This document shows positions 806-16,595 of a stretch of 34,765 nucleotides of DNA, piece by piece. How positions within the stretch are numbered: the first letter of the stretch is position 1; every line of letters starts with the position of its first letter. Under the pieces are notes generated by a model. That model was not told where the DNA came from. It saw only the letters and a list, made by a program, of their open reading frames with translations, and ran no database searches. The translations under genes were made by a program, and so were the position numbers. Source of the stretch: Bryobacteraceae bacterium (lineage in GTDB: Bacteria > Acidobacteriota > Terriglobia > Bryobacterales > Bryobacteraceae); the NCBI GenBank assembly GCA_019748195.1, contig JAIEPW010000103.1, positions 1-34,765 of the forward strand, in the 5' to 3' direction.

Positions 806-2641
806 TTATTCCTTCGGGAGCGTTATCGTGAACCGGGAACCAGCGCCCACCTGGCTCTCGACCGAGACCCGGCCGCCATGTTGCTCGACTATCTCCTTGA
901 CCAACGCCAAGCCAATCCCGGTTCCTTCTTCGCTTCCCTTCTCATCGCGTTTGGCGCGATAGAACTTCTCGAAGATCTTCTCCCGTTCGGCGGGGCTGAT
1001 CCCTTGGCCCTGATCGGCAACCACCACGGTAACCGCATCGCCACTCTCCCGTGCGGATACGAGAATCGACGTGTTCCTCGGACTGTACTTTACTCCGTTG
1101 GTGATCAGGTTGTAGAGCGCGAACGAGAGCAACTCCTCATCCGCCCTGAGTTCGATCTCCGGCGCGGTGAGTTCCACTCGGATCTTCTTCCTCGCCGCGT
1201 ACAGCCGTCCCCGTTCCACGGCTTGCTCGCATATCCCGCGCAAGGCCACCGGGCTCTTCTCCAAACGGATGCTTCCGGACGCAAGACGTTCCACGTTAAG
1301 GAATGTCTGCACCAGGCCGGTCAGCCGTTTCGATTCCTTGTGAATCAAGCCGGCCATTTCGAGCCGTTGTCCTTCGGGTACCCCCGATTCGGAGAGCATT
1401 TCGCTGGACCCTTGAATCGCCGTCAGCGGCGTCTTGATCTCGTGAGCGATCGCCTGGATCCGAAACGCATACTCTTGCCTCCTTCGGACCTCGCCGGCAA
1501 GTGATCGTTTGAGAACGGAATGTTCGGTGACGGCGGCAACGGCGGCCACAAAGACAAAGAGCGTGACGAGCGAGCCGGTCGGAAACAGGATGCCGAACCG
1601 GATGCTGGCAAACCCTGCCCCGAACAGCACGGCCCCGATCAGCAGAAAACCGAGGAAGAGCGGCCATCCTTCAAGCCGCAGGATCGCAAGGATCGCCGCT
1701 GCGATGACCAGCAGCCCGAGCCCGAACTCACCGGCTGGTCCCACGGCTTGGAGGAACGCTTGGTCGAGGATGGTCCGGATCACGTTGGCATGGATCTCAA
1801 TCCCACTCATGCCAATGCCGGCCGAGACCGGCGTGAACATGCGGTCCCCGCCGCCTTGGGCGGTTACGCCCACGATCACGAGTTTGTGGCGGAGCGCGGC
1901 CGGATCGGCGCTCCCTTCGAGGAGGTCGGAGAAGCTGACCCTTTGGAAAGAACGCTCCGGACCGGCGTAGTTGATGAGCAGGATACGATTCTCGTCGGAG
2001 CGAGCCGGTAGCCGAACACTTCCCAGGACCACCGATTCCGGCTGCTCGATTGGACGCTCCGCCCCAAGGAAAAGCCGAGCAGCTTCGAGCCCGAAGGCCC
2101 AGCGGCGCGTGTTCCTGCCCTCCTTCGCCAAGAGAACGGAGCGAACGTCGCCGTCGGCGTCGGGAGAGGCATGCACGTGTGCCACGGAGGCGCCGCCGGC
2201 GAAAAGCGGCAGCGGTTCGATCCATGACGGTTCGGCTTGCCCGTCGCTATCGAGACCGGCGCCGAGAACCACGTGCGAATACCGGCGCAACGCGGAAGCC
2301 AACTCCGCATCGGCAACGGGGTCTCCCGGCTCCGACAGCAGGAGATCGACCGCCAGGACCCGCGGCTGCAGCGAGGCCAGCATCGTGAGTCCTGCGGCGA
2401 GAGTGCTTCGCGACAGGGGAAGCGGACCAAAGTGGGCTGCGGTGCGGTCATCGATCGCGAGCAGCACGATCTGGCGCATCGAAGGGCTGGCTTCGACGGG
2501 CCGAAGCCGGAGGACCAGATCGTTCCATTCGGTGTTGAGCTGTTGAACGAACCCGTTCCACATGACGAAAGGAAGCGCGACGAAGGCGATCAAGCAATAG
2601 ACCGAGCGGACGAACGCAGGGCTGGTGTGAAGCGGTTTCAT
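806..2641 (-). CDS. CHASE2-domain sensor histidine kinase
   Basis: This 611-residue membrane sensor has an N-terminal TM helix, a large extracytoplasmic CHASE2 domain (about residues 30-285), a cluster of three TM helices (about 295-375), HisKA with the phospho-acceptor His in AIAHEIKTPLTA, and HATPase with N box NLITNGVKYS and G boxes DQGQGIS and GTGIGLAL. It should phosphorylate the regulator encoded immediately downstream. GTG and ATG codons further upstream (2686, 2668) are possible starts, but a sigma-54 promoter at 2665-2679 predicts transcription from about 2653. That excludes them and leaves the ATG at 2641. The ligand cannot be read from sequence. The divergent multicopper oxidase suggests a metal or redox envelope signal (inference). 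Confidence 0.92.
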   Translation of the reverse strand: MKPLHTSPAFVRSVYCLIAFVALPFVMWNGFVQQLNTEWNDLVLRLRPVEASPSMRQIVLLAIDDRTAAHFGPLPLSRSTLAAGLTMLASLQPRVLAVDLLLSEPGDPVADAELASALRRYSHVVLGAGLDSDGQAEPSWIEPLPLFAGGASVAHVHASPDADGDVRSVLLAKEGRNTRRWAFGLEAARLFLGAERPIEQPESVVLGSVRLPARSDENRILLINYAGPERSFQRVSFSDLLEGSADPAALRHKLVIVGVTAQGGGDRMFTPVSAGIGMSGIEIHANVIRTILDQAFLQAVGPAGEFGLGLLVIAAAILAILRLEGWPLFLGFLLIGAVLFGAGFASIRFGILFPTGSLVTLFVFVAAVAAVTEHSVLKRSLAGEVRRRQEYAFRIQAIAHEIKTPLTAIQGSSEMLSESGVPEGQRLEMAGLIHKESKRLTGLVQTFLNVERLASGSIRLEKSPVALRGICEQAVERGRLYAARKKIRVELTAPEIELRADEELLSFALYNLITNGVKYSPRNTSILVSARESGDAVTVVVADQGQGISPAEREKIFEKFYRAKRDEKGSEEGTGIGLALVKEIVEQHGGRVSVESQVGAGSRFTITLPKE

Positions 2642-2664
2642 CCGAGTCTCTGTCGTCAGTATGA

Positions 2665-2679
2665 GCATTCCGGGTGCCA
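2665..2679 (-). promoter_or_regulatory. Sigma-54 promoter of the CHASE2 kinase/regulator operon
   Basis: The minus strand reads TGGCAC-N5-ATGC, an exact -24 element with a one-base variant of the -12 element TTGC at the strict sigma-54 spacing. The predicted start is near 2653, 12 bases before the kinase ATG. The pair may therefore be autoregulated. Confidence 0.6.
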
Positions 2680-2680
2680 A

Positions 2681-2698
2681 GGGCACGCCCGCGTGCCC
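2681..2698. promoter_or_regulatory. Dyad GGGCAC-N6-GTGCCC, candidate enhancer-binding-protein site
   Basis: The perfect dyad GGGCAC GCCCGC GTGCCC sits between the divergent kinase and multicopper oxidase genes. Its centre is about 96 bp upstream of the predicted sigma-54 start of the oxidase. The same dyad with the same N6 spacing recurs at 6251-6268, about 97 bp upstream of the predicted start of the PQQ-like operon. Position and symmetry fit an NtrC-type upstream activating sequence (inference). Confidence 0.6.
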
Positions 2699-2758
2699 AA
2701 ACAGACCGGCCGCGTAGGCTTCCTGTAGCTCAAGTTATTGAAAACAATAGCATGGCGT

Positions 2759-2773
2759 TGGCCCTTCGCATGC
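2759..2773 (+). promoter_or_regulatory. Sigma-54-like promoter of the multicopper oxidase
   Basis: TGGCCC-N5-ATGC keeps the invariant GG and GC dinucleotides at the correct separation. The predicted start is near 2785, 30 bases before the oxidase ATG. Confidence 0.5.
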
Positions 2774-2814
2774 TTCATGTTCGGTGGATACTCTTGTCAG
2801 AGAGGGAGGCGGCG

Positions 2815-4206
2815 ATGAACCGAACGAGCAGGCGACAGCTTCTGAAGGCGAGCTTGGGTATGCCAGTAATCCTCTCAGTCCCGCGTTTGCGGGGCTCCGA
2901 GAACAGCGGCGTGGTCGAGGCGACGTTTGCCGCAAGCCAACAATGGGTCCAGGTCGGGGGGAGGTTCGGATACCTGTACACCTACAACGGGCAGGTCCCC
3001 GGACCCGTGATTGAGGCCAAGCCAGGCGACGAGGTACGAATCACGTTGCGGAACGACCTGCCCGAACCGACCAACCTCCACTTCCATGGGCTACACATCC
3101 CTTCCACGGGCAACGCCGACAACGTGATGCTCCGGGTTCCGCCCGGGCAGTCGCAGGAGTACTCGTTCACCATTCCGGCCAACCACCCCTCGGGGACCTT
3201 CTGGTATCACCCTCATGTCCACGGTTCGGCGGCGCGACAAGTGTCGCGGGGACTTGCCGGTGCGTTTCTGATCCGGAATCCGGAGGACTCCGTTCCGGAG
3301 ATCACTCAGGCGCCGGAAGCTCTCGTCGTCCTGCAGGATTTCGCTCTGGACGGAGGCGGCCGGCCGGTTGAACCCAACATGATGGACCGGATGCTGGGCC
3401 GGGAAGGAGTTTTGGTCACGGCAACGGGGGCGCTGAGACCGGAATTTGAAGTCGCGCGCGATGGATGGCTCCGGCTTCGCATCGTGAACGCCTCCAGTTC
3501 CCGCTTCTACCGGCTTCGAATCGAGGAGCACCCGATGCTCGTTGTCGCCTCAGACGGCGGTTATCTCCCGCGGCCGGAACTTCGGGAAGAGGTCTTGCTC
3601 ACGCCCGGCGAGCGAGTCGAAGTGATGGTGCCGGGGTCTCGCGTGCCAGGCGTCTACCGGCTGCTCAGCTTGCCTTACAACCGCGGGGGCATGGGGATGA
3701 TGATGGGCGGCAACAACACCAGCGCTTCGTTCGAGGTGGCCCGGCTGCGATACGGCAGTCTCGCCGATTCCACCTGGAGCCTTCCCGAGAGCTTGGTCCG
3801 GATCGACGGACTGCCGGAGCCCGCCGTCCGGCGAGTGTTCCAGTTGGGCCAAGGCATGGGAATGGGCATGATGGGCGGCGGCATGAACTTCACCATCAAC
3901 GGCCGCACTTTCAGCGAAGCCAGAATCGACGTGCGGGCCAAGCTGAACGATGTCGAGGAGTGGGAGTTCGTGAACCCATCCTCGATGGACCACCCCATGC
4001 ATATCCACACCAACCCGTTTCAGGTCGTTCGAGGAGGTTCTTGGACGGGGTGGAAGGATACCGTGCTGGTCAAGGCCGGCAGCCGGGTCGCCGTGCGGTC
4101 CGCGTTTCGCGATTACGAAGGGGTGAGTCCGTATCACTGCCACATCCTCGACCATGAGGACCAGGGGATGATGGGAATGCTGGAGATCGCCGGCGCGGAT
4201 CACTGA
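2815..4206 (+). CDS. Tat-exported multicopper oxidase (CueO/laccase-like), Met-rich
   Basis: The gene encodes 463 residues. The ATG at 2815 follows a purine-rich ribosome site (GGGAGG). The N-terminus has a twin-arginine signal (TSRRQLLKA). All four copper-ligand blocks are present: HFHGLH (about residue 89), WYHPHVHG (about 131), HPMHIH (about 393) and YHCHILDHE (about 440), so T1 and T2/T3 sites look intact. Two Met/Gly-rich loops (GMGMMMGG about 291, MGMGMMGGG about 347) resemble the Met-rich copper-binding inserts of CueO-type cuprous oxidases. The likely role is periplasmic Cu(I) oxidation and detoxification. It diverges from a two-component operon and converges, 8 bp apart, on a DUF2318 gene whose operon shares its dyad motif. 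A laccase acting on organic substrates is the alternative. Confidence 0.93.
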   Translation: MNRTSRRQLLKASLGMPVILSVPRLRGSENSGVVEATFAASQQWVQVGGRFGYLYTYNGQVPGPVIEAKPGDEVRITLRNDLPEPTNLHFHGLHIPSTGNADNVMLRVPPGQSQEYSFTIPANHPSGTFWYHPHVHGSAARQVSRGLAGAFLIRNPEDSVPEITQAPEALVVLQDFALDGGGRPVEPNMMDRMLGREGVLVTATGALRPEFEVARDGWLRLRIVNASSSRFYRLRIEEHPMLVVASDGGYLPRPELREEVLLTPGERVEVMVPGSRVPGVYRLLSLPYNRGGMGMMMGGNNTSASFEVARLRYGSLADSTWSLPESLVRIDGLPEPAVRRVFQLGQGMGMGMMGGGMNFTINGRTFSEARIDVRAKLNDVEEWEFVNPSSMDHPMHIHTNPFQVVRGGSWTGWKDTVLVKAGSRVAVRSAFRDYEGVSPYHCHILDHEDQGMMGMLEIAGADH

Positions 4207-4214
4207 GATCCAAT

Positions 4215-4739
4215 TCAGTTTGCGTCCTGTCTCAAAACCTTGAGGCTGGCTCGCCAATCCTCCGCGCGGACAACGATAGCCGCGCCATCGACTGTGTGCG
4301 TCACCGGGATGGGCGTGCAGTCCGGTTGCTTGCCTATTACCTGGCCGGGCTGGAGCAGCGGCATCGGCTCCGCGCAATGGCCACAGATGAGCCGGCCGTT
4401 GCGCACATAGCTTGGCCTTGCGGCTTGCCGGCAGCGGCGGCATTCAGCAAGGGTAACGGCGACGAAGCCGCTCGCTTGCCGGCTGGCGAAGAGAGAAACG
4501 GCGGCGCCACTGCCGGGATCGGCGACACGCGCGATGCGCGCTTTGCCAGTGGGGATTTCGGCAAGCGGCACTCGAACTTCGGGCTCCGAGCCGAAAAGCA
4601 GATCTTTAGGCCGCGAGAACTCATGGTCTCGGAATTGCACCCATCCAGTGACCGCAGCGGCGGTCGTGACGAGGAGAACAGTAAGCGTGAGCTGCCAGCG
4701 CTCGCGACTCGTCAAGTGCCGGTGCTTCGCGCGTTTCAT
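4215..4739 (-). CDS. FtrD-like DUF2318 membrane-anchored CxxC protein
   Basis: The 174-residue protein has one N-terminal TM helix (about 14-33, TVLLVTTAAAVTGWV) and a periplasmic domain. It carries two CxxC pairs (ECRRCRQ about 99, ICGHCAEP about 119) and a C-terminal CTPIPVTHTVDG segment. This layout matches the DUF2318 / FtrD-like family, the periplasmic partner in FtrABCD-type iron transport and a putative Fe-S or metal-thiolate protein. It overlaps the upstream DUF302 gene by the four bases ATGA. No FtrC permease is in the window, so it probably works with the Met-rich PQQ-like and DUF302 proteins in copper or iron handling (inference). Confidence 0.8.
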   Translation of the reverse strand: MKRAKHRHLTSRERWQLTLTVLLVTTAAAVTGWVQFRDHEFSRPKDLLFGSEPEVRVPLAEIPTGKARIARVADPGSGAAVSLFASRQASGFVAVTLAECRRCRQAARPSYVRNGRLICGHCAEPMPLLQPGQVIGKQPDCTPIPVTHTVDGAAIVVRAEDWRASLKVLRQDAN

Positions 4740-5209
4740 CGCCAGAAGCCTCCCTCGGTGCGAATCTCGGTGCCGGGTTGCCTTGCCGCCACTGGCTCCG
4801 TGGAAACGCAGCGCTGGGCGCCCGCGCCCTCGATTGCCTGTGCGAGCCGAACCAGAGTGCGGTGCACCGGAATCGTGATGGCCGGAGAGATCCCGGAAGT
4901 CCTGACCGCCGCTGCCGAAAGGACGGATACCTGGACCGAGTCCCCGCGATCGGCGATCACGAGGTGAATGGGAAAGAACAGGGCCGCGGCGGAATCTCCG
5001 ACCAATCCTTCGAGAAGGAGGAACGGGCAGACGACACCGAAGACGCCGCTCTTAGCCAGTTGCACGCCGACCTCCCGGCGGACCTCACGCCCCAGATCGA
5101 CCTCGAAACAAATGTCCAGGAGGCCTTGTTTGAGTGCGCGCCTCAAACGTTCAGTTGCGGCCGAGTAGGGGCCGCTCATGACCCACTCCGTGCTCCATTC
5201 GTTCTGCAT
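4736..5209 (-). CDS. DUF302-like domain protein
   Basis: About 157 residues from the ATG at 5209. It reads as an alpha/beta DUF302-type domain: a helix with RLRRALKQGL, an acidic strand ICFEVDLG, a central strand GVVCPFLLLEGL, then FFPIHLVIAD. DUF302 proteins occur near metal, sulfur and cytochrome genes, and their biochemical role is unknown. There is no signal peptide with this start. The frame continues upstream to 5311, but those residues look unlike protein and contain the terminator hairpin. The 3' end overlaps the DUF2318 gene by ATGA, implying coupled expression. The start site is moderately uncertain. Confidence 0.7.
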   Translation of the reverse strand: MQNEWSTEWVMSGPYSAATERLRRALKQGLLDICFEVDLGREVRREVGVQLAKSGVFGVVCPFLLLEGLVGDSAAALFFPIHLVIADRGDSVQVSVLSAAAVRTSGISPAITIPVHRTLVRLAQAIEGAGAQRCVSTEPVAARQPGTEIRTEGGFWR

Positions 5210-5260
5210 TTCAGGAACCCCACCAGCACACCAGCAATCCAGAGTCCAGGCCGAATAAGA

Positions 5261-5292
5261 GACCCGGCGGCCCTTGAGGGCGACGCCGGGTC
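5261..5292 (-). terminator. Strong hairpin after the PQQ-like gene
   Basis: A nine-base perfect stem (GACCCGGCG / CGCCGGGTC) encloses a four-base inner stem GCCC-TTGA-GGGC. On the minus strand it follows the PQQ-like stop by 29 bases and is followed by TCTTATT, only weakly T-rich. It may terminate partially, or stabilise the first gene's mRNA and so lower expression of the DUF302/DUF2318 pair. Confidence 0.55.
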
Positions 5293-5321
5293 GGTTGGCA
5301 GCGGGAGCCAAGCGAAATGGA

Positions 5322-6125
5322 TCAGTTGGCGGGCATGCCGACCCGCGCTTCCGCGAGCTTCAAGCGAAACCTCTGGCGACCATCGGGATTGAACGCATAC
5401 AGATACTTCTCGCCGGCGGCCATCGAATCGTTGTCGCCGGAGTTGCTGCCGTTTCGCGCTCCACGCTCGAATCCGGTCACGTAGACCACGTAGTTGCCGG
5501 TTTCGTCGGCCGCAACTCGAGGCGTGGACAAGACGTCGGACTCAACGTCGATGGTCGTGGCAATACGCGCGGAGAATGGGTCGGAGGCGATGACCAGAAG
5601 CCGCGCCTTCCCAGTTCCGTTGCCCGGGTTCATCATTCCACCGCCGGTCTGTGTCTCCATCGAGAACTCCGACACGGTCAGGAAGATCCGGCCATCCTTG
5701 GCGAGCGCGGGATCGGAGACCATCCCACCGGTGATTTCCAGCCGCCAGCGGGCGGACCCGTCGCGAGCGTTGACCGCCATCAGTTCTTGCCGGAGTTGAT
5801 TCGGCTGGTTGCTGTTGGTTGAGGTTTGGGGGATGGTCCGGACGACATAAGCCGTTCCGTCGGGACCTACCGCAGGGCCGTCCATCATCTCGCGGCCCCC
5901 CATGCCCATGTTCATCGCGTTCATGACCGCGGCGCCCATGCCCTGGCCCATTCCTTGGCCTTGGTGCATTCCGTTGTTCTGTCCCGGCCCCATCGGATTG
6001 CCGGGGTTGTTCGGGCCCATCATGCCGCCACCCATCTGGGCAAGCGCCGCCACGCCAAGGATTAGGACGAGCGCCACTAACCGCATAAGCGTTCGGATCG
6101 AATCGGAAGAGGATTGAAGTTTCAT
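5322..6125 (-). CDS. Secreted Met-rich PQQ-propeller-like protein
   Basis: The 267-residue protein starts at the ATG at 6125, preceded by AAGGAAA. It has a signal peptide (hydrophobic LVALVLILGVAALAQ), then a Met/Gly/Asn/Gln-rich stretch (about residues 31-82) with repeats such as GQGMGQGMG. PQQ-type propeller blades follow: GPDGTAYVV, VNARDGSARWRLE, ALAKDGRIFLTVS and YLYAFNPDGRQRFRLKL. About three to four blades are visible, too few for a closed propeller, so it may oligomerise or be a partial fold. Met-rich segments typically bind Cu(I)/Ag(I). It heads an operon with DUF302 and DUF2318 genes and has its own sigma-54 promoter and dyad. The function is unknown; periplasmic copper binding is my inference. 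Confidence 0.8.
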   Translation of the reverse strand: MKLQSSSDSIRTLMRLVALVLILGVAALAQMGGGMMGPNNPGNPMGPGQNNGMHQGQGMGQGMGAAVMNAMNMGMGGREMMDGPAVGPDGTAYVVRTIPQTSTNSNQPNQLRQELMAVNARDGSARWRLEITGGMVSDPALAKDGRIFLTVSEFSMETQTGGGMMNPGNGTGKARLLVIASDPFSARIATTIDVESDVLSTPRVAADETGNYVVYVTGFERGARNGSNSGDNDSMAAGEKYLYAFNPDGRQRFRLKLAEARVGMPAN

Positions 6126-6174
6126 ATCGGTTTTCCTTAACAAGGCCTTTCAGGCCGTGATGTCCCCTTCATAC

Positions 6175-6189
6175 GCAGATGTCGTGCCA
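6175..6189 (-). promoter_or_regulatory. Sigma-54 promoter of the PQQ-like/DUF302/DUF2318 operon
   Basis: The minus strand reads TGGCAC-N5-CTGC: an exact -24 element and a near-exact -12 element at the correct spacing. Transcription would start near 6163, giving a 38-base leader before the ATG at 6125. Confidence 0.6.
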
Positions 6190-6231
6190 TTCCGTCTCTA
6201 CAGAAACGCAAGGAGTTACGGGAGTCGAGCG

Positions 6232-6268
6232 GTGCCCAGCGAAGCGACTTGGGCACAGTACCGTGCCC
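6232..6268. promoter_or_regulatory. Triple half-site with dyad GGGCAC-N6-GTGCCC
   Basis: GTGCCC (6232-6237) is followed by the dyad GGGCAC AGTACC GTGCCC (6251-6268). The dyad centre lies about 97 bp upstream of the predicted sigma-54 start of the PQQ-like operon. It matches the site at 2681-2698 in arms and N6 spacing, and both copies extend to TTGGGCAC when read in the appropriate orientation. Confidence 0.6.
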
Positions 6269-7256: not shown

Positions 7257-7691
7257 TCAGTGTCTCTTCCGTCCCCCAATCCCAATCTCTTTGAGGGCAG
7301 CTTCCATGTCGGCCAGGCAGCGGTCCTCACAAGCATCCGGTGGTGAGAAGTAATCGACGCGGTGCATGAGCCGAATGACGAGGACTACCTCGCTCGGCCC
7401 GCGGCCATCCGAATGGAGCGAGCGGTCAAAGGGTTCGATCTCGCAGACCGACGGCCGGACTTCGGCGGGAATCACAGCCTCGGCGATAGCCCGGAGGTCT
7501 GCGAAGGTCTCCCGGCAGGCGGGACAACCGGGAGTCAGGCTGGAATGACCATGGTCATGGGTACCGTGAAGCTCAAGATCGACGCCCACGACGACGCGGC
7601 GCCCCTCGTGGACTTCCCAATGGGGCCAAATCTCGTAGCGGACGGTATGCCGTTGCGCTCGTGCCCGAAGTTGCTCGCCCGGGTTCAACAT
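7257..7691 (-). CDS. Hypothetical protein with CPAC and clustered Cys/His
   Basis: 144 residues, starting at the ATG at 7691 after the strong site GGGGAGGGAG. There is no signal peptide or TM helix. Features visible are a His-rich stretch ELHGTHDHGHSS (about 42-53), a CPAC pair (about 58), one further Cys, and a C-terminal DACEDRC. The Cys/His content suggests a metal-binding or redox protein. I do not recognise the family. A sigma-54-like promoter lies 36-50 bases upstream, and the gene diverges from the CBM48 gene. Confidence 0.65.
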   Translation of the reverse strand: MLNPGEQLRARAQRHTVRYEIWPHWEVHEGRRVVVGVDLELHGTHDHGHSSLTPGCPACRETFADLRAIAEAVIPAEVRPSVCEIEPFDRSLHSDGRGPSEVVLVIRLMHRVDYFSPPDACEDRCLADMEAALKEIGIGGRKRH

Positions 7692-16034: not shown

Positions 16035-16595
16035 TCAATGCCATCGAAAGTAGACCCCGGCTGCCGTTCGGCCGTACCATGCGATGTCAACCGCTTTCAC
16101 GGCTCGAAAGTCAAGGAAAACACCCACGTTGCGACCGACCTTGCAGTCGATGCCGCCGCCCGGGGAGACGCCGAATCTTGCGATGGAGCCACCAGCGCTT
16201 GCAGTGGCCCCCATCATATCCGTCGATCCGCCCATCCCGCCGGTTCGTCCGGAGACTGAAGCCGTCACCGCGCCGGCGGTCAGTGCAGCGTAGGGCGTAA
16301 CGCGCGACCGATTTGCCGCCGAGATCCGGACGCCGCCCATTACCTCGTGCCGCCGCGCGCTGTGCATCCCGAGGCCGTTGTTCGCGTAACTCCCCGTGAC
16401 GGCGAGCAGCCTGTTGAGCCCAAACGCGACCTCCACTCCGGCGGTCGGAGCGACGGTGTCCATGACGCCAGAGCTGGGGCCGAAGCTGACGCCCGCGAAC
16501 CCCCTCAACTCTCCCCGGCCACGATCCAGATTCCAATCTTGTGAAAAAGCGAGCGCGGCGAATAGCGACCCGCAGAAAGCCCACCTGATGAACAT
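16035..16595 (-). CDS. Small outer-membrane beta-barrel protein
   Basis: About 186 residues, ATG at 16595 after AGGAG. It has a cleavable signal peptide (FCGSLFAALAFSQD). The body is Gly/Ala-rich with alternating strands (RGFAGVSFG, AGVEVAFGLNRLLAVTGSYA, VTPYAALTAGAVTA, NVGVFLDFRAVKAVD) and ends in an aromatic-rich AAGVYFRWH, the OmpA/OmpW-like eight-strand barrel pattern. A Met/Gly-rich loop (GGMGGSTDMMG) is present. It is the last gene of an operon with TlpA-like and DUF5666-like genes (gap 16 bp). Its role, whether structural or a small porin, is not determinable. Confidence 0.8.
   Translation of the reverse strand: MFIRWAFCGSLFAALAFSQDWNLDRGRGELRGFAGVSFGPSSGVMDTVAPTAGVEVAFGLNRLLAVTGSYANNGLGMHSARRHEVMGGVRISAANRSRVTPYAALTAGAVTASVSGRTGGMGGSTDMMGATASAGGSIARFGVSPGGGIDCKVGRNVGVFLDFRAVKAVDIAWYGRTAAGVYFRWH

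Follow-up and report, generated by a model that had tools for sequence, protein, structure and literature searches.

The GGGCAC-N6-GTGCCC dyad of a Bryobacteraceae bacterium is a probable enhancer of a CHASE2 kinase/NtrC-type regulator system

Introduction

In Myxococcus xanthus, copper tolerance is served by the two-component system CorSR, which controls the nine-gene curA operon with its genes for an oxidase, a PQQ_2 lipoprotein and CopA (passages available from PMC3707914). The locus considered here lies on contig JAIEPW010000103.1 (assembly GCA_019748195.1) of a Bryobacteraceae bacterium, a member of the Acidobacteriota; the whole stretch analysed, 34,765 nucleotides, is called the window. 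It carries two copies of the inverted repeat (dyad) GGGCAC-N6-GTGCCC among genes for an NtrC-type response regulator, a CHASE2 sensor histidine kinase, a multicopper oxidase and a PQQ-like protein. A preliminary description of this DNA had proposed that the dyad is the binding site of the regulator and unites these genes in one regulon.

Compared by domains and gene content, CorSR appears to be the best functional analogue of this locus. As here, a histidine kinase is paired with a sigma-54 regulator (receiver, sigma-54 activation and HTH_8 domains), and a multicopper oxidase and a PQQ_2 protein cluster behind putative sigma-54 promoters. CorS, however, has HAMP and no CHASE2 among its listed Pfam families, whereas the window kinase is the opposite, matching CHASE2, HisKA and HATPase and giving no match to HAMP (PF00672). 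Moreover, Myxococcus has one nine-gene operon that includes a copper ATPase, in contrast to the convergent units of the window, and the available passages list no FecR or barrel gene and name no regulator site (PMC3707914). The BiofilmReg operon of Burkholderia contaminans, in the parts of its report available, likewise groups genes for a histidine kinase with CHASE2, a response regulator and a FecR-domain protein that is exported; it differs in that the regulator belongs to the CreB type and is no sigma-54 activator, LysM accompanies FecR in the same protein, oxidase and PQQ-like genes are absent and neither sigma-54 nor sigma54 is mentioned in that text (PMC5192318). Comparative genomics of two-component enhancer-binding regulons in Desulfovibrio has described, in the passages available, palindromes that lie upstream of sigma-54 promoters and are conserved beside regulator orthologues. 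One of them, yGTCA-N6-TGACr, is likewise an inverted repeat with a six-base gap, but sequence, regulators and phylum are all different; there, the distance from a sigma-54 promoter to the nearest regulator site stays below 100 nucleotides, apart from four cases in which it exceeds 300 bp (PMC4641369). A literature search, with most subscription papers outside its coverage, found no report of the dyad site, nor of such a regulon in Acidobacteriota.

Results

The dyad is matched perfectly at window positions 2681-2698 and again at 6251-6268, 3.6 kb apart. Both copies had been reported in the preliminary description, and they prove to be the only exact copies with a six-base gap in the whole genome (G000; 5,832,045 bases in 154 contigs), in which the reversed control pattern has no exact copy. 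With up to two mismatches the genome holds 333 copies of the dyad and 412 of the reversed control, from which simple counting gives a chance expectation of roughly 0.5 exact dyads per genome. A shuffle test at the same tolerance, which is uninformative on exact copies, was not significant (2 dyads found against 2.75 expected). The extension described on one arm is also real: viewed from the opposite strand, the promoter-proximal arm of both copies reads TTGGGCAC. The equal inner spacing holds for the window, with a gap of six bases in both copies, but it is not fixed, as orthologous loci use six or seven. The inner bases vary across sites while the arms are constant.

Recurrence of the dyad was followed through kinase orthologues, defined by E <= 1e-135 in 237 genomes of the family, with up to 20 kb read around each kinase. 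There are 21 such genes in 20 genomes, and they form a distinct group because the next homologue appears only at 9.7e-125 (in an earlier search of 101 relatives). All 4096 hexamers were then ranked as dyads of the form X-N6-rc(X), rc being the reverse complement, in the 21 loci including the window (291,351 bases). GGGCAC ranks first, its 20 copies being spread over 15 of the 21 loci against 4 copies for the runner-up, and its gap-7 version, found in 8 loci, is the second-highest entry by loci across gaps 0 to 15. If either gap and one mismatch are allowed, the dyad is present in 19 of the 21 loci, although such locus counts are not independent events, L152, L153 and L154 being near-duplicates.

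The sites fall chiefly at three syntenic places, namely the gap upstream of the kinase gene, which is mostly shared with the oxidase, the promoter of the PQQ-like gene and the 3' end of the regulator gene before a FecR-domain gene. Each target gene was examined over a stretch that begins 300 bp before it and covers its first 60 bp. When gap 6 or 7 and one mismatch are allowed, the dyad is present there at 8 of 9 multicopper oxidase genes, 10 of 10 PQQ-like genes and 14 of 16 FecR-domain genes; random windows of the same loci contain it in 957 of 20,000 cases (4.8%), and seven matches came from another 104 loci (973,197 bases). It is missing upstream of the oxidase gene of L157 and of the FecR genes of L127 and L161. 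At L148 the kinase-gap site (gap 7, one mismatch) is followed by no oxidase gene, and an oxidase fragment lies at the opposite end of the contig. A gap-6 dyad, even with one mismatch allowed, is absent from the loci of oxidase homologues without a kinase nearby (L046, L047, L049, L050, L051, L054, L071 and L084); L050 has a single gap-7 match with one mismatch, about 1.8 kb before the oxidase.

Each window copy precedes a putative sigma-54 promoter, the dyad centres lying about 70 and 71 bp before the -24/-12 elements. This bears out the equal promoter distance that had been described, and the starts predicted about 95-97 bp away are consistent with it. Indeed, the distance is nearly constant among relatives. 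With up to two mismatches, a -24/-12 element was found at five kinase-gap sites (the window, L148, L149, L150 and L154), about 70-71 bp from the dyad centre, at seven PQQ-like sites, at 71-72 bp, and at eight FecR sites, where the distance is 84-86 bp in six, 60 bp in one and 95 bp in one. The pattern TGGCAC-N5-TTGCW is matched without mismatch at five promoters, those of the L126 FecR gene and of the PQQ-like genes of L148, L151, L154 and L158; in the latter four the dyad distance is the same as in the window. The remaining dyad sites have weaker -24/-12 elements, or none under the two-mismatch rule. Two sites of L126 stand outside the assigned target groups, one at 16132 (a dyad with one mismatch and a weak element at 70 bp) and one at 7396 (a weak sigma-54-like element facing the wrong direction).

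In order to relate the arrangement to the kinase, a composite pattern (the dyad, 48-78 bp, then TGGCNC-N6-TGC) was searched for in all 237 family genomes. It gave 14 sites in 10 genomes, all of them kinase-carrying: 10 of 20 kinase-positive genomes against 0 of 217 kinase-negative ones (Fisher 1.5e-12, an optimistic value for the reasons discussed below). The absence from the 217 kinase-negative genomes is the independent part of this test. The reversed control gave two sites, both in kinase-negative genomes. Thirteen of the 14 composite sites are on the contig of the kinase; the other (G218:C368) precedes a PQQ-like gene on a different contig and has a promoter without mismatch. The preliminary description had expected the motif to accompany orthologues of these genes, and both its recurrence upstream of them, at near-constant distance from sigma-54-like promoters, and its restriction within the family to kinase-carrying genomes agree with this.

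The exact dyad on its own (gap 6 or 7) is less selective. It occurs 54 times in the 20 kinase-positive genomes, 29 copies being on the kinase contig in addition to that at G218:C368, and 16 times in 20 hand-picked kinase-negative genomes (0.8 per genome), with reversed controls at 12 and 18, respectively. The 24 of 54 copies that remain when the kinase contig and G218:C368 are set aside amount to about 1.2 per genome, and a comparison of these 20 kinase-positive with the 20 kinase-negative genomes revealed no clear extra members of a wider regulon.

GAFTGA is the loop by which activators contact sigma-54; it reads GSFTGA in the window regulator and GAFTGA in that of L148. The window regulator is a fragment that aligns with residues 1-267 of the L126 regulator at 74% identity. 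The latter is full length and has, besides the receiver and sigma-54 activation domains, HTH_8 (PF02954), a Fis-type helix-turn-helix (HTH). Its recognition helix, GIQRRTLYKKLAR, is identical in 16 of the 17 regulator orthologues examined and different in all seven paralogues. In L159 (451-1959, minus strand) the sequence that follows GIQ no longer contains the recognition helix, which looks like the effect of a frameshift or an assembly error. The genome of the window organism also encodes sigma-54 (rpoN; PF04552 at G000:C151, E 2.8e-57, above the cut-off) and other NtrC-type regulators (13 matches to the C-terminal part of the regulator at E <= 1e-20). L126 encodes a second NtrC-type regulator (1549-3990, 41% identical), near an FtrD-like gene on the same contig.

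In relatives the regulator gene is followed by a FecR-domain gene (PF04773) and then by a gene without a Pfam match. The FecR-side dyad lies inside the regulator coding sequence in L126 (12709-14073), L128 (3917-5278), L155 (11248-12606), L157 and L160, and at or just past the stop codon in others of the family. Where it falls within the last codons of the regulator, the same bases thus encode the protein tail and would act as the proposed enhancer. The product of the second gene (for example P0008, L148 5434-6639) was folded from 14 aligned sequences, and the model (mean predicted local distance difference test, pLDDT, 74.9; predicted template-modelling score, pTM, 0.57) has a helical N-terminus and an outer-membrane beta-barrel with a methionine-rich loop. 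Among solved structures it comes closest to that of the amyloid-secretion channel FapF (E 6e-12, template-modelling score 0.42 by query length, 12% identity), a likeness that offers a lead and not a family assignment. No match to the end of the regulator gene, to the FecR gene or to most of the barrel gene turned up in the assembly of the window organism. Its contig C67 begins with the C-terminal 52 residues of a barrel protein (62% identical), and the assembly is probably broken between the middle of the regulator (G000:C94:1) and the end of the barrel gene (G000:C67:1).

Outside the family, three kinase homologues pass 1e-130 in 399 genomes of the class, and a search of 200 genomes of a second family gave three, one of them new. 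In all four second-family loci (L194, L195, L196 and L198) an exact dyad lies within the 3' end of the regulator gene, before the FecR gene, and the recognition helix of the L194 regulator reads GIQRRTLYKKLER. None of the four has a PQQ-like match; remote matches are an oxidase in L198 (30%) and a DUF302-type protein in L194 (21%). A more distant kinase homologue, L197 (G085, 41-43%), lacks a FecR match and, even with one mismatch allowed, the dyad as well. This pattern suggests that the FecR-side site is ancestral and that the copper-type operons were recruited later.

Beyond the arms, position +15 is C at 27 of 29 sites and position -15 is G at 23 of 29. In the second family the same bases occur in only one (+15) and two (-15) of four sites, whereas C at -12 and G at +12 are found in four of four; the binomial values calculated for this comparison ignore relatedness. 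An extended outer half-site thus generalises only in part and was rejected as a general feature.

The coordinates of the window features are collected in Table 1. The oxidase sequence has laccases as its nearest solved structures, one named from Thermus thermophilus, followed by CueO, and methionine-rich stretches occur in the oxidase and at the N-terminus of the PQQ-like protein. The DUF302-related gene has no Pfam match of its own; its relative L150:6071-6547 matches DUF302 above the cut-off.

Table 1. Positions of the dyads, putative control elements and genes of the window.
Feature	Position	Strand	Remarks
Dyad GGGCAC-N6-GTGCCC	2681..2698	.	kinase-oxidase intergenic gap; exact match; proposed upstream activating site
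Dyad GGGCAC-N6-GTGCCC	6251..6268	.	upstream of PQQ-like operon; exact match; proposed upstream activating site
Putative sigma-54 -24/-12 element of oxidase, TGGCCCTTCGCATGCT	2759..2774	+	2 consensus mismatches; ~70 bp from dyad centre
Putative sigma-54 -24/-12 element of PQQ-like operon, TGGCACGACATCTGCG	6174..6189	-	2 consensus mismatches; ~71 bp from dyad centre
Sigma-54-like element TGGCACCCGGAATGCT	2664..2679	-	1 mismatch; faces kinase gene; abuts dyad
IHF-like sequence, tentative	2731..2743	-	in the stretch from dyad to oxidase promoter; 1 consensus mismatch
NtrC-type response regulator, cut by contig end	1..803	-	receiver PF00072 and sigma-54 activation PF00158
CHASE2 sensor histidine kinase	806..2641	-	PF05226, PF00512, PF02518
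Methionine-rich multicopper oxidase	2815..4206	+	three Cu-oxidase Pfam families
FtrD-like (DUF2318) gene	4215..4739	-	PF10080 above cut-off
DUF302-related gene	4736..5311	-	start uncertain, open frame given; 51% identical to L150:6071-6547
Methionine-rich PQQ-like (beta-propeller repeat) protein	5322..6125	-	first gene of leftward operon; PF13360 E 7e-6, just under cut-off

At the position equivalent to that of the kinase-facing element, L148, L149 and L150 have TGGCAC or TGGCAT. It is possible that the regulator, when bound to the dyad, blocks this element, which would amount to autorepression.

A bending site, for IHF or another protein, is common but not obligatory between an activator site and a sigma-54 promoter. 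The IHF-like match of the oxidase promoter was equalled by shuffled sequence in 4% of trials. With up to one mismatch to the same consensus, such a sequence occurs at 3 of 8 kinase-gap, 6 of 10 PQQ-like and 2 of 11 FecR sites. A TTGAAAACA-like block, which at 2731-2743 of the window is IHF-like on the opposite strand, recurs between dyad and promoter in several kinase-gap and PQQ-like promoters.

Discussion

Regulator domains, contact loop, rpoN, putative -24/-12 promoters and a conserved palindrome are all present, and the assignment of the system as an NtrC-class sigma-54 two-component regulon is well supported by these sequence features. Within it, the dyad is very probably the upstream activating sequence, or enhancer, of the adjacent NtrC-type regulator. 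A signal sensed via the CHASE2 domain would lead the kinase to phosphorylate the regulator, which would bind the dyad through its Fis-type HTH and, by DNA looping, drive sigma-54 RNA polymerase at the promoter about 70 bp further on. The predicted targets are the methionine-rich multicopper oxidase and the methionine-rich PQQ-like/DUF302/FtrD-like operon, and in relatives also the operon of the FecR-domain protein and the predicted outer-membrane barrel behind the regulator gene. Conservation, spacing and co-occurrence all favour the regulator site and the regulon as originally proposed; that proposal left out the FecR/barrel operon. This third candidate target, the flexible gap and the sites inside the end of the regulator gene are new relative to the preliminary description.

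Several observations weigh against this interpretation. Half of the kinase-positive genomes (10 of 20) lack the strict composite pattern. Its spacing range was picked after inspection of the loci, and the genomes are interrelated; these two points make the Fisher value optimistic. Across the phylum the composite pattern occurs in 6 of 395 other genomes, counted regardless of kinase content (control 1), with five of the six matches falling into two groups of similar sequences. The dyad is absent, even with one mismatch allowed, from two of the 21 loci, L162 and L138, the latter being a contig of 3.2 kb. Both window promoters are two mismatches away from the consensus, and their credit therefore comes mainly from the orthologues. 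Finally, the HTH of the window organism's own regulator is missing from its assembly.

The alternative with the greatest weight, although an improbable one, is that a different protein, either another enhancer-binding protein or a one-component regulator, binds the dyad, and that its adjacency to kinase and regulator reflects gene clustering. The further NtrC-type regulators of the genome would provide candidates for such a protein. However, the dyad-promoter combination is restricted within the family to kinase-positive genomes, and the second family, in which no oxidase or PQQ-like orthologue adjoins, still has the dyad at the regulator 3' end in all four loci. Moreover, the recognition helix is near-invariant among the orthologues and different in the paralogues.

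Explanations that dispense with a DNA-binding protein fare far worse. An RNA hairpin acting as a terminator or processing signal would suit the perfect complementarity of the arms and the location of some sites where the regulator gene ends. Yet the dyad precedes the oxidase and PQQ-like promoters by a near-constant 70-72 bp and so would fall outside their transcripts, and no T-run follows the sites; on position and the missing T-run we reject the hairpin as very improbable. Chance recurrence, or a dispersed genome repeat, is the least probable reading of all. The shuffle result and the near-background rate of dyads outside the locus would be compatible with it, but it is rejected by the genome-wide exact copies, of which both are in the window, by the first rank among all 4096 dyads with arms kept while inner bases vary, and by the comparison of kinase-positive and kinase-negative genomes of the family.

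As to physiology, the gene content and the likeness to Myxococcus CorSR make envelope copper or redox homeostasis the most likely role, on which our confidence is evenly poised. A broader and more tentative proposal, which we consider somewhat less likely to be right than wrong, is that of an undescribed envelope stress module of Acidobacteriota, in which a CHASE2 kinase and a sigma-54 regulator would have an ancestral target of FecR protein and FapF-like channel, with the enhancer often in the last codons of the regulator. One family would then have captured methionine-rich copper operons through enhancer copies at near-fixed promoter distance.

Overall, a guess made from sequence alone has become a well-supported regulon with a defined putative operator in Acidobacteriota. 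It predicts which genes are under the control of the CHASE2 kinase, such that the signal of this sensor can be sought with a reporter, and it suggests that, through copies of the enhancer, the regulator gained targets beyond its immediate surroundings with the distance to the promoter almost unchanged. The interest of the system lies in the larger regulon, in an enhancer inside a regulator gene and in the handle that it gives on CHASE2 sensing. If the envelope stress module is true, the CHASE2 domain would gain a testable signal, copper or the redox state of the envelope.

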